IMG/VR virus record: IMGVR_UViG_3300020156_000029
Location: 1-64,000 of that record
DNA: 64,000 nucleotides
Direction: 5' to 3' (one strand)
Origin: a virus
A program made the position numbers and the translations under genes. The notes under the pieces were generated by a model that had not been told where the DNA came from, ran no database searches, and saw only the letters and a list, made by a program, of their open reading frames with translations. Positions 29,719 to 35,698 of the stretch are shown in pieces. Every line of letters begins with the position of its first letter. Position 1 is the first letter of the stretch.

Positions 29719-30930
29719 TTGAGCACCATCGACGAGAAGCTGAAGGACTACGCGACGCCGCGTCAGTCCGAGATCATCGACGCCCTTAACGCGGCGGCCG
29801 GCAACGAGAGCGCGGCGGCCCGCGCCCTGAGCGTGGCCCGCCAGACGGTGCAGAGCGCCGTGCGAGAGGTGAAGAAGAAGGCGGCACGGGCTGGCTATGC
29901 CCCCGGCCACTTCAAGGACGGCGTCGCCCCCGGTTACCTGATGGGGAAGGTGACGGTCCACCGCGACGCGGCTGGCCAGGTCGTCCAGACCTGGGAGCGC
30001 CAGTCGCCGGAGGAGGCCGATCGTCTCGCCGCCGTCCTCGAGGCGGTTCGCGAAGCGGCCGAAGACCTCCCCCGCCTCGCACCGCTGGCCGCGCCGGCGA
30101 GCACGCTGAAGCACCTCCTGAACCTCTACGTCTTCACGGACTACCACCTCGGCATGAGGGCCTGGGCGGAGGAGGGCGGCGCGGACTGGAACCTCGAGAT
30201 CGCCGAGCGGATGGTCGTCGAAGCGTTCGAGCACATGATCGCCTCGGCCCCGGCCGCTCGGGTCGGCTTCATCGGCCAGCTTGGCGACTTCCTGCACTTC
30301 GATTCGCTCCTGGCGGTGACGCCGACGAGCCGGCACGTCCTTGACGCCTCGTCGCACTACAAGGAGGTCGTCCGCGCCGCCATCCGCATCATGCGGCGGC
30401 TGATCGACTTTGCGCTCCACCGGCACGAGGAGGTCGTCGTCCTGGCGGCCGAGGGGAATCACGACCTGATCGGCGGCGGTGTCTGGCTCCCCGAGCTTGT
30501 CCGCGCGCTCTACGAGAACGAGCCCCGCGTCACGATCGTCGACAGCGCCACGCCCTACTACGCCTATGAGTGGGGCTCGACGATGCTGGCCTTCCATCAC
30601 GGCCACATGAAGAAGCTCGAGACCCTCCCGCTCGTCTTCGCCGAGCGCTACGCCGAGATGTGGGGCCGCACCAAGAAGCGCTACGCCCACGCCGGCCACT
30701 ACCACCACGAGGTCGAGAAGAAGGACGTCGGAGGGATGCGGGTCACCCAGCACCCGACCCTGGCCCCGAACGACAGCCACTCGGCGCGCGGCGGCTATGC
30801 GGCGAATCAACAGACCTCGGTCATCACCTATCACGAGCGCTTCGGGAAGGTGGCTGAGAACGTGGTGACGCCCGAGATGCTGACGGGCTTCGACGAGCCG
30901 GTGGGCGCGGGACGGCTGGGGCTGCGGTGA
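29719..30930 (+). CDS. Calcineurin-like metallophosphoesterase with N-terminal DNA-binding-like region
   Basis: 403 residues from a TTG start. Residues 10-60 look like a small HTH (AAGNESAAARALSVARQTVQSAVREV). The C-terminal 270 residues carry the dimetal phosphoesterase motifs in order: FTDYHLG (D-x-H), GDFLHFD (GD), GNHDLIG (GNHD), FHHGH and AGHYHHE. Related phage proteins occur widely near terminase or lysis genes; the substrate is unknown (DNA ends or nucleotides are possible). It overlaps the next gene by one base. Confidence 0.8.
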   Translation: MSTIDEKLKDYATPRQSEIIDALNAAAGNESAAARALSVARQTVQSAVREVKKKAARAGYAPGHFKDGVAPGYLMGKVTVHRDAAGQVVQTWERQSPEEADRLAAVLEAVREAAEDLPRLAPLAAPASTLKHLLNLYVFTDYHLGMRAWAEEGGADWNLEIAERMVVEAFEHMIASAPAARVGFIGQLGDFLHFDSLLAVTPTSRHVLDASSHYKEVVRAAIRIMRRLIDFALHRHEEVVVLAAEGNHDLIGGGVWLPELVRALYENEPRVTIVDSATPYYAYEWGSTMLAFHHGHMKKLETLPLVFAERYAEMWGRTKKRYAHAGHYHHEVEKKDVGGMRVTQHPTLAPNDSHSARGGYAANQQTSVITYHERFGKVAENVVTPEMLTGFDEPVGAGRLGLR

Positions 30931-31253
30931 TGATCAAGCTGGCCATCTCCTTCGCCCTGGCCGTCGCAACGGCCGCTCCCGTGACCCAATACGTCTCGCT
31001 CCCGCCGTCCGAGTTTCAGGGCGGCGCTCCCATCGCAGTCAGGCTGATCACCGGCCCGCGCGCCGACATCGACCCCGCGTGCAAGTTCCTGGGCGGCCAG
31101 GTCGGGCCGGGCATGGTCATCGCGGCCTGTTACAAGAACGGCGTCATCGTCGCGCCCGATCCGTGCGACCCGTTCTTCGCCGGCGAGAAGTTCGCGGACC
31201 TGATGTGCCACGAGATCGGGCACGCGCGGGGTTGGAGCCACGAGGTCGAGTAG
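30930..31253 (+). CDS. Small secreted protein with HExxHxxGxxH zinc motif
   Basis: 107 residues. A short signal peptide (MIKLAISFALAVATAAP) precedes a domain with four Cys and, at the very end, MCHEIGHARGWSHEVE: His94, Glu95, His98 and His104 make the complete metzincin-type zinc site HExxHxxGxxH. The enzyme would be very small, and only three residues follow the motif, so a normal metzincin Met-turn is absent. A GTG at 30927 is an alternative start. It ends the left arm, just upstream of the RNA locus. A periplasmic peptidase is possible; activity is unproven. Confidence 0.65.
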   Translation: MIKLAISFALAVATAAPVTQYVSLPPSEFQGGAPIAVRLITGPRADIDPACKFLGGQVGPGMVIAACYKNGVIVAPDPCDPFFAGEKFADLMCHEIGHARGWSHEVE

Positions 31254-31396: not shown

Positions 31397-31424
31397 TTGA
31401 CGCGGGAATGTGACCCGTTATGGT
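31397..31424 (+). promoter_or_regulatory. Sigma-70-type promoter of the tmRNA gene
   Basis: TTGACG (31397-31402), 16-base spacer, TATGGT (31419-31424); predicted start near 31431, just before the P2 strand of the tmRNA acceptor piece. It lacks the GGAATAAAA repeat of the early promoters, so it may be constitutive. Confidence 0.6.
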
Positions 31425-31425
31425 G

Positions 31426-31735
31426 TTGCTTGTTCGGGTCTGGACACGGGTGCGAATCCCGTCACCTCCACCACGAACGCACAGACGGGGGATCGCTCCC
31501 CGTCGCCAGAGAGCGAAGCTGGCGGCATCTGAACCGGACTGTGCGTTCTTGATGGGGGTGATTAGTTTCGACAGGCCCAGGGCGCGGTAGCCAATCCGCA
31601 CACATTGAACTGTGAACGACAACTACGACCTGTCTCAGGCCATCGCGGCCTAAGCGGAGCCCGCCGAGGGCTTGGCAACAGAACCTCGGCACCTCATTCG
31701 GGCCTCGGCCCGCATCGCGCAGACCCCGCGTCGTA
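31426..31735 (+). ncRNA. ssrA: Phage-encoded circularly permuted two-piece tmRNA
   Basis: Acceptor piece first: P2 strand GGGTCTG (31436-31442), T arm ACGGG-TGCGAAT-CCCGT (31446-31462), acceptor strand CACCTCC (31463-31469), A and encoded CCA (31471-31473). An intervening segment closed by a 10-bp GAACGCACAG/CTGTGCGTTC helix (31475-31484/31539-31548) follows, to be removed. The coding piece begins GGGGGTG (31554-31560; 7 pairs with CACCTCC, one G-U), then ATTAGTTTCGACAGG, the tmRNA D-loop signature, and P2 CAGGCCC (31572-31578; 7 pairs). The tag frame from GTG 31612 reads VNDNYDLSQAIAA then TAA (31651-31653); the true resume codon may be this or the one before. An H-type pseudoknot follows (AGCCC 31658-31662/GGGCT 31668-31672; GCCGA 31663-31667/TCGGC 31686-31690). 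The permuted two-piece form is characteristic of alphaproteobacteria. The 3' end is approximate. Confidence 0.88.
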
Positions 31736-32247
31736 GGGTCGACGGCCGAGAGAGAACGGCAAGCGCCGAGGGTCTACTCCCCCTCGATTGACGGGCTCGC
31801 AGGCCCCGGAGAGCGCGATGTCTGCGGATTATTCGCCCGAGAGGGCGTCCGATGAGTGGAGAGCGACCACTCCTTCCCGAGCCCAGGGAGTAGCACGCTC
31901 AGAGGGTGACCCGAGAGGGAGCGCCGGCTAGGAGCTTGCCGGTAGAGGGGTGGATTAGCTGGGATTCAAAACCCTGGCTTCGTCCACCCCTCGATCCAGT
32001 TGCCCCTTGGGCGAGGCCGCCAGCCGGAGGCGGGTTAGAAGTGGATGGACGTGGGGCCTTAGGGCCTTGGTGAGATGTCGTGAAAGGGCGGCGGTCGGTC
32101 CTGGGTTCGATTCCCAGTGCGGAGGCAACTCCGCGTAGCTCAGCCTGGTAGAGCAACCGCGACAGCCGCGCGACAAGGCCGGGCATCACCCGGCGGGCGT
32201 TACAGTAAGCGGCCCGCAAGGCCCCGGTCTTCGGATCGGGGCCTTCT
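31721..32247 (+). ncRNA. Large structured RNA region downstream of tmRNA (class unknown)
   Basis: No credible protein gene, but dense long complementarities: AGACCC 31721-31726/GGGTCT 31770-31775; CTACTCCC 31774-31781/GGGAGTAG 31886-31893 enclosing GGGCTCG 31793-31799/CGAGCCC 31878-31884; CGCCC-GAGA-GGGCG 31834-31847; GAGTGG 31854-31859/CCACTC 31867-31872; CCGGC 31924-31928/GCCGG 31938-31942; a 10-bp GAGGGGTGGA 31945-31954/TCCACCCCTC 31983-31992; CCGCC 32017-32021/GGCGG 32029-32033; GGGGCCTT 32053-32060/AAGGCCCC 32218-32225, the last enclosing a permuted tRNA-like domain. It ends at a UUCG terminator hairpin. Large ornate phage RNAs (GOLLD, ROOL) near tRNAs are a precedent, but I cannot assign it to one. 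Confidence 0.6.
32091..32160 (+). ncRNA. Circularly permuted tRNA-like domain with acceptor stem capped by GCAA
   Basis: Every tRNA arm is present but the 3' half precedes the 5' half: anticodon-stem strand GCGGT (32091-32095), 5-base variable loop, T arm CTGGG-TTCGATT-CCCAG (32101-32117), acceptor TGCGGAG (32118-32124), GCAA (32125-32128), acceptor CTCCGCG (32129-32135), TA, D arm GCTC-AGCCTGGTA-GAGC (32138-32154), A26, anticodon-stem strand ACCGC (32156-32160). Acceptor 7 bp (one G-U), D stem 4, anticodon stem 5, T stem 5 with canonical loop sizes. The anticodon loop is replaced by an opening into the surrounding RNA, and there is no canonical U33-anticodon sequence. The topology equals that of the permuted tmRNA upstream. 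Confidence 0.75.
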
Positions 32248-32250
32248 CCT
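32218..32250 (+). terminator. Intrinsic terminator of the RNA locus
   Basis: Twelve-pair stem AAGGCCCCGGTC-TTCG-GATCGGGGCCTT (32218-32245) with a UUCG tetraloop, followed by a weak pyrimidine run TCTCCTTATAT. Its 5' arm also pairs with 32053-32060, so terminator and RNA-domain closure compete. Confidence 0.65.
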
Positions 32251-32633: not shown

Positions 32634-32836
32634 TTTTACAGTGCTCTATCGGCTCCTAGTGCGGGCAGGAGCCGGGTTTTACACCTAAGTCGTTGAGAAA
32701 CCACGTATGTTATCAGCTTCCCAAGCTGAATGTCGTGGGTTCGATTCCCATCGCCCGCTCCAAAATCCCTAGACATTAGAACGACATAGCTCGGTGGTCA
32801 TTTCGGCCAACGCCCGAGTTTTACACCGATTTTACA
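32634..32836 (+). other. attP: attP: tRNA-Gly(CCC) 3' end flanked by integrase arm-type repeats
   Basis: Positions 32713-32762 reproduce the 3' part of a tRNA-Gly(CCC): anticodon stem TCAGC/GCTGA with loop TTCCCAA, T arm GTGGG-TTCGATT-CCCAT, acceptor CGCCCGC, T, CCA. The 5' half is absent, as expected for a phage that restores the host tRNA gene on integration. Four copies of TTTTACA lie at 32634-32640, 32677-32683 (left) and 32819-32825, 32830-32836 (right), matching arm-type integrase sites. The integrase gene is 1.9 kb to the right. Confidence 0.82.
32650..32680 (+). terminator. Terminator-like hairpin left of the att core
   Basis: CGGCTCCT (32650-32657)/AGGAGCCG (32667-32674) followed by GGTTTT. 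The T run doubles as the start of an arm-type TTTTACA repeat. It could stop rightward transcription from the RNA locus before attP. Confidence 0.5.
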
Positions 32837-34470: not shown

Positions 34471-34661
34471 GTAACCGCCGCAAGGCCGAGCGTCGAGTCG
34501 AGATCGCGCGACTGCGCGAGGAGGGTGCCGAGGCGGCACGCGCTGGCCGGCACGTTCAAACCTGTCCCCAGCGTTACATGCGGACGGAAAACCGGGCGCA
34601 TTGGGAGCGAGGATATTGGGAAGCGGTTGAGCGAGAGGGGCTCCCGCACTTCCCCACCTAA
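34467..34661 (+). CDS. Small basic hypothetical protein, 64 residues
   Basis: GTG start overlapping the previous stop. Very basic (MSNRRKAERRVEIARLREEG), with YMRTENRAHWERGYWEA. Last gene of the + operon; its stop overlaps the integrase stop on the other strand by four bases, so the two transcripts collide. Confidence 0.65.
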   Translation: MSNRRKAERRVEIARLREEGAEAARAGRHVQTCPQRYMRTENRAHWERGYWEAVEREGLPHFPT

Positions 34662-35698
34662 CCCGCCGCCGCCCGCCCCAGCTTCTCGATCTTCGCGCGG
34701 AGACGCTTGGCCCGGTTGACGTAGCGGTCGATGATCCCCTCGACCTTCTCCTTCTTCCACCCGAGCATCTCCGCGATGTCCTCGGTGGTGAGGCCGGCCA
34801 GATAGAACTTGGTGGCGGCGGTGCCGCGCGCGTCGTGGAAATGGAGCGTCCAGCCCGCCTCCTCGAGGCCGACCCCCTCCGGTACGTCGTCGCCGAGCGC
34901 CGCCCAGCACGCCTTATTCCACGATGAGCCGAACCCGCCGGCCCAGGGCGTCCCGTCCGTCGACGTCAGGACGTGGGTCGAGCGCTTGGGGATTTCGGCC
35001 AGGAGCGCGCGAAGCTCGTCGTAGAGCGGCACGACGTATTCCAGCTTGCCGCGCGACTTGCCGGTCGGCATGACGATGGCCAGGTCGCCGATGTGGCCCC
35101 ATTGCAGCTTGAGGAGGTCGCCTTGCCGGAGGCCAGTCAGGCACGCCAGCCGGAGCGCCCACATGATCTCGGGGCTAGCCGTCTTAGCGAACGACGTCAG
35201 GTCTTCGGGCGTCCAGATGTGGTCGGCCCGGTCAGCGCTGTAGAGGTTCGCGATCCCGAAGCACGGGTTCGACTTGAGGCGGCCCTCCTCGACGGCGTAG
35301 GACAGCACGGCGGAGAGCACCTGTTTCCCCATGTCGGCCGCGCGCGGGTTGTCCTTCCACTTCGAGCGCCACTTCTTGATGACCTGGCGCACCTCGGGCT
35401 TGTCGAAGGTCTTCACCGACAGCTTGCCGAGGCCCTCGTTGACCCGGTCGAGCCACGGACCCCAGTTCTTTTTCGTGCTGGCGGCCAGGCCCGCGTAGGC
35501 GTCGCTCTCCTTATAGTCGGCGATCAGGCCCGACAGCTTCGAGGCGTCGTCGGGGCCGGCCGTGAGCGCGTGCCAGGCGGCGACGAACTCCTTCGAGCCC
35601 GGCTGGCCGGGGAGGCGCGGGCCGCCGCGCCAGGCGTAATAGTATGTCCGCCCCTTAGCGTTTACGCGGTGAAGGCCCTTGAGGTCGATCGTCGCCAT
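34658..35698 (-). CDS. int: Tyrosine recombinase integrase
   Basis: 346 residues with a core-binding N-terminal half and a C-terminal catalytic domain carrying the first Arg in TGLRQGDLLKLQWGH, the box II HFHDARGTAATKF (His-x-x-Arg) and the nucleophile Tyr in IIDRYVNRAKR. It is the last gene of the long minus-strand operon. It should act on the tRNA-Gly attP at 32.7 kb. Its start overlaps the small gene upstream by 44 bases. Confidence 0.93.
   Translation of the reverse strand: MATIDLKGLHRVNAKGRTYYYAWRGGPRLPGQPGSKEFVAAWHALTAGPDDASKLSGLIADYKESDAYAGLAASTKKNWGPWLDRVNEGLGKLSVKTFDKPEVRQVIKKWRSKWKDNPRAADMGKQVLSAVLSYAVEEGRLKSNPCFGIANLYSADRADHIWTPEDLTSFAKTASPEIMWALRLACLTGLRQGDLLKLQWGHIGDLAIVMPTGKSRGKLEYVVPLYDELRALLAEIPKRSTHVLTSTDGTPWAGGFGSSWNKACWAALGDDVPEGVGLEEAGWTLHFHDARGTAATKFYLAGLTTEDIAEMLGWKKEKVEGIIDRYVNRAKRLRAKIEKLGRAAAG

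Follow-up and report, generated by a model that had tools for sequence, protein, structure and literature searches.

An orphan YrlA-like tRNA mimic downstream of a permuted tmRNA in a phage genome

The presence of tRNA-like helices in reversed order in a phage sequence, with the T arm and the 3' acceptor strand preceding the 5' acceptor strand and the D arm, raises the question of which kind of RNA is encoded there: a permuted tRNA gene, a second split RNA similar to the neighboring tmRNA, or a tRNA-like molecule of another class. The locus was analyzed in a window (the whole stretch of DNA under analysis) comprising 64,000 of the 64,207 bases of an IMG/VR virus record.

Genomic setting of the element

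The element is located in an RNA-rich stretch bounded by the gene for a small protein (30927-31253) and an integrase gene (34658-35698, minus strand). The following features surround it:

31397-31424, plus strand: sigma-70-like promoter candidate upstream of the tmRNA (consensus match only)
31419-31653, plus strand: permuted (two-piece) tmRNA with a tag reading NDNYDLSQAIAA (Rfam RF04321, 76.2 bits versus a cut-off of 47; tag read by eye)
32220-32250, plus strand: intrinsic-terminator-like hairpin GGCCCCGGTC-TTCG-GATCGGGGCC (32220-32243) with the tail TTCTCCTT (from sequence and fold)

The Rfam match confirmed the permuted tmRNA that had been recognized upstream in the earlier note. ARAGORN does not report a tmRNA at 31419-31653. 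The permuted-tmRNA acceptor pattern had at least 120 matches in viral contigs, and phage-borne permuted tmRNA may, judging from such sequence patterns, be common in IMG/VR. The core of the element begins approximately 440 bases past the tmRNA match. Between the two, a strong hairpin, GAGGGGTGGA...TCCACCCCTC, at 31950-31995 encloses the T-arm-like sequence GGGATTCAAAACCC.

Further downstream, 50 bases (32713-32762) are identical to the 3' half of an alphaproteobacterial tRNA-Gly(CCC) and are flanked by TTTTACA-type direct repeats (at about 32632, 32677, 32816, and 32830), with the gene for a tyrosine integrase nearby. This segment is probably the attP site, and the carrier is probably a temperate phage of an alphaproteobacterial host.

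Sequence and predicted fold of the core

The core and the stem predicted to close it consist of the following parts:

32096-32155, plus strand: permuted tRNA-like (YrlA-type) core comprising V loop, T arm, GCAA-capped acceptor, D arm, and base 26 (leave-one-out covariance model R3; Rfam RF02553)
32096-32100, plus strand: V loop CGGTC (sequence)
32101-32117, plus strand: T arm CTGGG-TTCGATT-CCCAG (pair probability 0.97-1.0; columns invariant in family alignment A1)
32118-32135, plus strand: acceptor helix TGCGGAG (32118-32124)/CTCCGCG (32129-32135) (pair probability; compensatory changes at 7/7 family pairs)
32125-32128, plus strand: GCAA tetraloop capping the acceptor helix (sequence)
32136-32137, plus strand: TA between acceptor and D arm (sequence)
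32138-32154, plus strand: D arm GCTC-AGCCTGGTA-GAGC (pair probability 0.97-0.98)
32155, plus strand: A26 of the core (sequence)
32076-32097, plus strand: 5' strand of the closing Y-like stem (TGTCGT, GCGGC, GTCG) with a GAAAGG bulge (minimum-energy fold; Rfam aligns model positions 1-114)
32160-32175, plus strand: 3' strand of the closing Y-like stem (CGAC, GCCGC, GCGACA) (minimum-energy fold)

The circularly permuted tRNA-like topology with a GNRA-capped acceptor, originally read by eye, is evident in the sequence and was supported by R3, a covariance model trained without the window (leave-one-out), which matched the core with 70.7 bits (E = 4.9e-17), the runner-up in the window reaching 17.3 bits. 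By the R3 and Rfam YrlA scores, the match is not due to chance. The 5-base variable loop and the single base at position 26 described earlier are present as CGGTC and A 32155. Compared with the columns conserved in the family, the core keeps the V-loop GTC and the tRNA tertiary-contact bases U8, A14, G15, G18-G19, C48, U54-A58 (TTCGA), and C61; U8, A14, G15, G18-G19, TTCGA, C61, and the V-loop GTC are invariant or nearly so across the module family.

Of the four canonical tRNA helices postulated in the earlier note, the T, acceptor, and D helices formed in the folded transcript with pair probabilities near 1 (0.99-1.0 for the six inner acceptor pairs), except for the T-G pair at the acceptor end with 0.26. 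The fourth, an anticodon stem GCGGT/ACCGC, had a probability of 0.008 and was 3.7 kcal/mol worse than the best fold. The outer helix proposed to continue from it (32053-32060/32218-32225) dropped to 0.001, because it draws on the 5' arm of the terminator hairpin, to which AAGGCCCC belongs. Instead, the best fold closes the module by GTCG/CGAC, GCGGC/GCCGC, and TGTCGT/GCGACA, a single-sequence prediction without comparative support because no homologue of the exact RNA was found among 30 related phage records. The element thus combines permuted order, a sealed acceptor, and an intact tRNA elbow signature, and has no anticodon loop.

Comparison with permuted tRNA genes and tmRNA

Circularly permuted tRNA genes of algae and archaea likewise have the tRNA halves in reversed gene order. 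Their transcripts are circularized and mature into normal, anticodon-bearing tRNAs, according to the review as cited in PMC10085705, whereas the element is without an anticodon arm. A permuted tRNA gene was rejected as a candidate on two grounds: a complete anticodon arm is absent (exit stem probability 0.008; 2/5 pairs for an upstream arm in register), and the acceptor strands are joined by the 4-base GCAA only, with neither an intervening sequence of a size suited to maturation nor CCA. A candidate for an upstream anticodon arm, TGTC-GTGAAAG-GGCG, was too weak and was dropped.

RNase P can in principle recognize a T arm plus acceptor. A tRNA that is split or circularly permuted and that this enzyme cleaves at the acceptor would agree with the topology of the element and its proximity to the permuted tmRNA (RF04321), in which the T arm and the 3' acceptor strand also precede the 5' acceptor strand. 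The tmRNA, however, has a CCA and an intervening segment of approximately 80 bases, whereas in the element four bases of a GNRA cap (GCAA) join the acceptor strands, CCA is missing, and the low anticodon stem probability is accompanied by the lack of an anticodon loop; moreover, the same GNRA-capped module is conserved in Ro-linked Y RNAs. The proposal that the element is a second two-piece tRNA-like RNA built like the tmRNA was not upheld on these grounds, and a permuted or split tRNA of this kind is very improbable.

Membership in the YrlA module family

The Rfam model for YrlA, a Y RNA-like family (RF02553), aligned from 1 to 114 with positions 32075-32179 at 40.7 bits (E = 4.6e-7 in a 2-kb stretch), which is below the gathering cut-off of 69 bits. 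Ro-linked phage Y RNAs likewise score just 33-58 bits against this model. Since the model also yields matches with E ≤ 0.001 in the genomes of E. coli, B. subtilis, and similar bacteria, where they presumably fall on side-by-side tRNA genes, further tests of the module were run.

A degenerate pattern, consisting of a GNRA tetraloop between a T arm and a D arm and indifferent to whether the acceptor strands pair, was found in 77 stretches of bacterial genomes and in 33 viral contigs. Among 101 distinct matches, acceptor complementarity was 7/7 in 69 and 6/7 in 15. In an alignment of 60 RNAs, each of the seven acceptor pairs and three pairs of the T stem showed compensatory changes, with 99.6% of pair counts being paired and a covariation of 0.777 versus 0.169 when shuffled; these 60 RNAs were preselected for at least six paired acceptor bases, which inflates part of the acceptor figure and leaves the unselected tally of 101 unaffected. 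Of the compensatory changes called for by the earlier note, those in the acceptor and T stem were obtained in the wider family; no homologue was found in the 30 related phage records.

These counts also bear on the idea that the element arose by decay from a tandem pair of tRNA genes after loss of the anticodon halves. Tandem tRNA genes that lie close together share the order from T arm to D arm, and duplicate tRNAs would provide complementary adjacent acceptor strands. Evident tandem-tRNA matches, however, usually pair 0-4 of the 7 acceptor bases, whereas in the element the GCAA cap and the seven-pair acceptor are precise, neither flank holds an anticodon arm, and the R3 score of the core exceeds the tandem-tRNA-like range of about 35-60 bits obtained with model R1. 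Such an origin is extremely unlikely.

The module RNAs of the family are regarded as Y RNAs because the module was found beside Rsr-, RtcB-, and RtcR-like ORFs in one contig and because 9 of the 14 phage records carrying the module encode a TROVE/Ro60 protein. The TROVE/Ro60 gene adjoins the module RNAs in L155, and in the Novosphingobium contig L344, an Rsr-like ORF, yrlA, and RtcB-like and RtcR-like ORFs lie side by side (ORFs named by eye), the Rsr-like ORF matching Ro-annotated phage proteins. The Pfam TROVE model (PF05731, as run) misses this Sphingomonad-type Rsr-like protein beside yrlA in L344 (G027); surveys of TROVE by PF05731 therefore undercount Ro, and an Rsr protein query was added.

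Sequence comparison identifies the window core as the tRNA-mimic module that YrlA-type Y RNAs, a known class, carry. With YrlA (RF02553; Salmonella YrlA structure 6CU1), the element shares the permuted T arm, capped acceptor, and D arm, the V-loop GTC, the elbow bases, and a closing stem. YrlA is modular, its stem binding Rsr and its tRNA-like domain being a substrate of DusA and TruB (PMC8394870; YrlA domain functions also in PMC7790460). Together with Rsr, Y RNA guides PNPase (PMC8394870, PMC6181284). The assumption that nothing similar was known in phages does not hold: the YrlA tRNA-mimic module is present in many bacteria and phages, and permuted tRNA-like RNAs in phages are already known. 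The 2014 work of Chen et al. reportedly placed bacterial Y RNAs in "more than 250 bacterial and phage species". Their identification in mycobacteriophages is mentioned in a 2025 paper that cites this work (PMC12282133).

Two further observations concern the anticodon region of the family. An anticodon-arm-like hairpin upstream of the V loop, with at least 4/5 stem pairs, occurred in 44/110 YrlA-type RNAs versus 28/330 shifted controls; U33 and purine 37 were present in 37 of the 44, with varied anticodons, e.g., UUU, UGU, and CUG. The carriers include L105, L080, L083, L093, L094, L061, and L098, as well as L294, L311, L314, and others, from phages and bacteria. In L411 (a 54-base R1 match), two permuted tRNA-like modules are in tandem, with just 18 bases from the D arm to the next T arm, a spacing shorter than that of a normal anticodon arm and V loop combined.

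Absence of a recognizable Ro-type stem and of a detectable phage Ro gene

Neither a recognizable Ro-binding stem nor a detectable phage Ro gene is present. The full-length Ro-type YrlA model R2, whose stem contains an invariant GAATGC, derives from 16 sequences of mostly alphaproteobacterial and verrucomicrobial origin, so that a strongly diverged Ro site could be missed. It aligned from 1 to 153 with every tested phage Y RNA from Ro-bearing records; in the window, only the core aligned (54-109), and the invariant GAATGC and 3' GTCG motifs of the Ro-type stem are absent from the RNA. Queries with PF05731 and with an alphaproteobacterial Rsr protein retrieved no Ro/Rsr gene from the phage's own record. 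The phage Ro/Y RNA loci of IMG/VR (e.g., L080/L155, L094, and L105) also encode a YrlA-type RNA with the capped permuted tRNA module; in contrast to the window, they carry TROVE/Ro-like genes, align with the Ro-type model over its full length, and in several cases have an anticodon-like arm. Genes annotated as Ro are also found in the Mycobacterium phages Myrna and Phabba and in Myxococcus phage Mx1, unlike in the window phage. Compared with YrlA, the element is thus without a recognizable Ro stem or phage Ro gene, scores below the cut-off, and lies beside a tmRNA and not beside rsr/rtcBA.

The element could still be an ordinary YrlA Y RNA that binds a host Ro protein, with a Ro site that has diverged too far for the model. 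A diverged site is conceivable because the 5' stretch TGTCGTGAAAGGG resembles the stems of Bacteroidetes YrlA (TGTCGTAGAAAAGGG). The end-to-end alignment with the Rfam YrlA model fits this reading, as does the alphaproteobacterial genome G074, which matches the attachment core (tRNA-Gly) at 50/50 bases and encodes Rsr and two Y RNAs, both matching the Ro-type model end to end. Against it, R2 covers all other tested Ro-linked phage Y RNAs completely, the GAATGC and GTCG motifs are missing here, and G074 is only a putative host; no Rsr match was obtained in four further genomes whose tRNA cores are near-identical. On balance, an ordinary host-Ro-binding Y RNA appears rather unlikely. As the two Y RNA features were not found, the element is not filed as a Y RNA and is described as containing the YrlA tRNA-mimic module. 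It is an orphan YrlA-like tRNA mimic, and the lack of a recognizable Ro-type stem and of a detectable phage Ro gene is what departs from known YrlA.

Search for relatives

A BLAST search with the region found nothing in phages, and the 116-base element retrieved from phages and plasmids just tRNA-gene fragments and one weak stretch of a Streptomyces plasmid without a tRNA-like core. Relatives identified by the metallophosphoesterase gene (73% and lower) had neither such an RNA nor a tmRNA. The integrase query had no match in IMG/VR, the small HEIGH protein query returned one distant relative, and the DNA search of 337 alphaproteobacterial genomes found short tRNA-gene fragments only. Because the related phages tested are without the RNA, it may be a recent acquisition. 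Among the other tmRNA-bearing phage contigs searched, none had YrlA near the tmRNA; therefore, the two do not form a standing pair.

Discussion

We consider it likely that the element is a non-coding RNA of about 100 bases, consisting of a YrlA-type tRNA-mimic module and a short closing stem, located downstream of the phage permuted tmRNA and provided with its own terminator: a derived YrlA that would either recruit a host Ro protein by way of a diverged stem or act independently of Ro. The arrangement suggests that the tmRNA and the YrlA-like RNA may make up a small phage RNA island with one candidate promoter (31397-31424) and one terminator.

The elbow would let host tRNA-recognizing proteins engage the RNA, for which the modification of YrlA by TruB and DusA and the tethering of PNPase by Y RNAs with Ro provide a precedent. 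With its sealed acceptor end and without an anticodon loop, an RNA recognized by host tRNA-binding enzymes in this way would be unable to be charged or to decode. Most likely, the RNA would function either with the host Ro protein or as a Ro-free tRNA mimic, the latter engaging or diverting RNA-processing or decay enzymes. It is a tentative possibility that the YrlA module was freed from the Ro stem and is used by the phage on its own, perhaps in one transcript with the tmRNA; during infection, it would then engage or divert host enzymes of tRNA binding or RNA decay.

A permuted tRNA shape spotted by eye in raw phage sequence thus corresponds to a known tRNA mimic of Y RNAs that is widespread in phages. 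If the form without Ro is functional, the tRNA-mimic role of Y RNAs would be separated from Ro binding in a virus carrying a tmRNA, and this form bears on the question of the module's own function apart from Ro.
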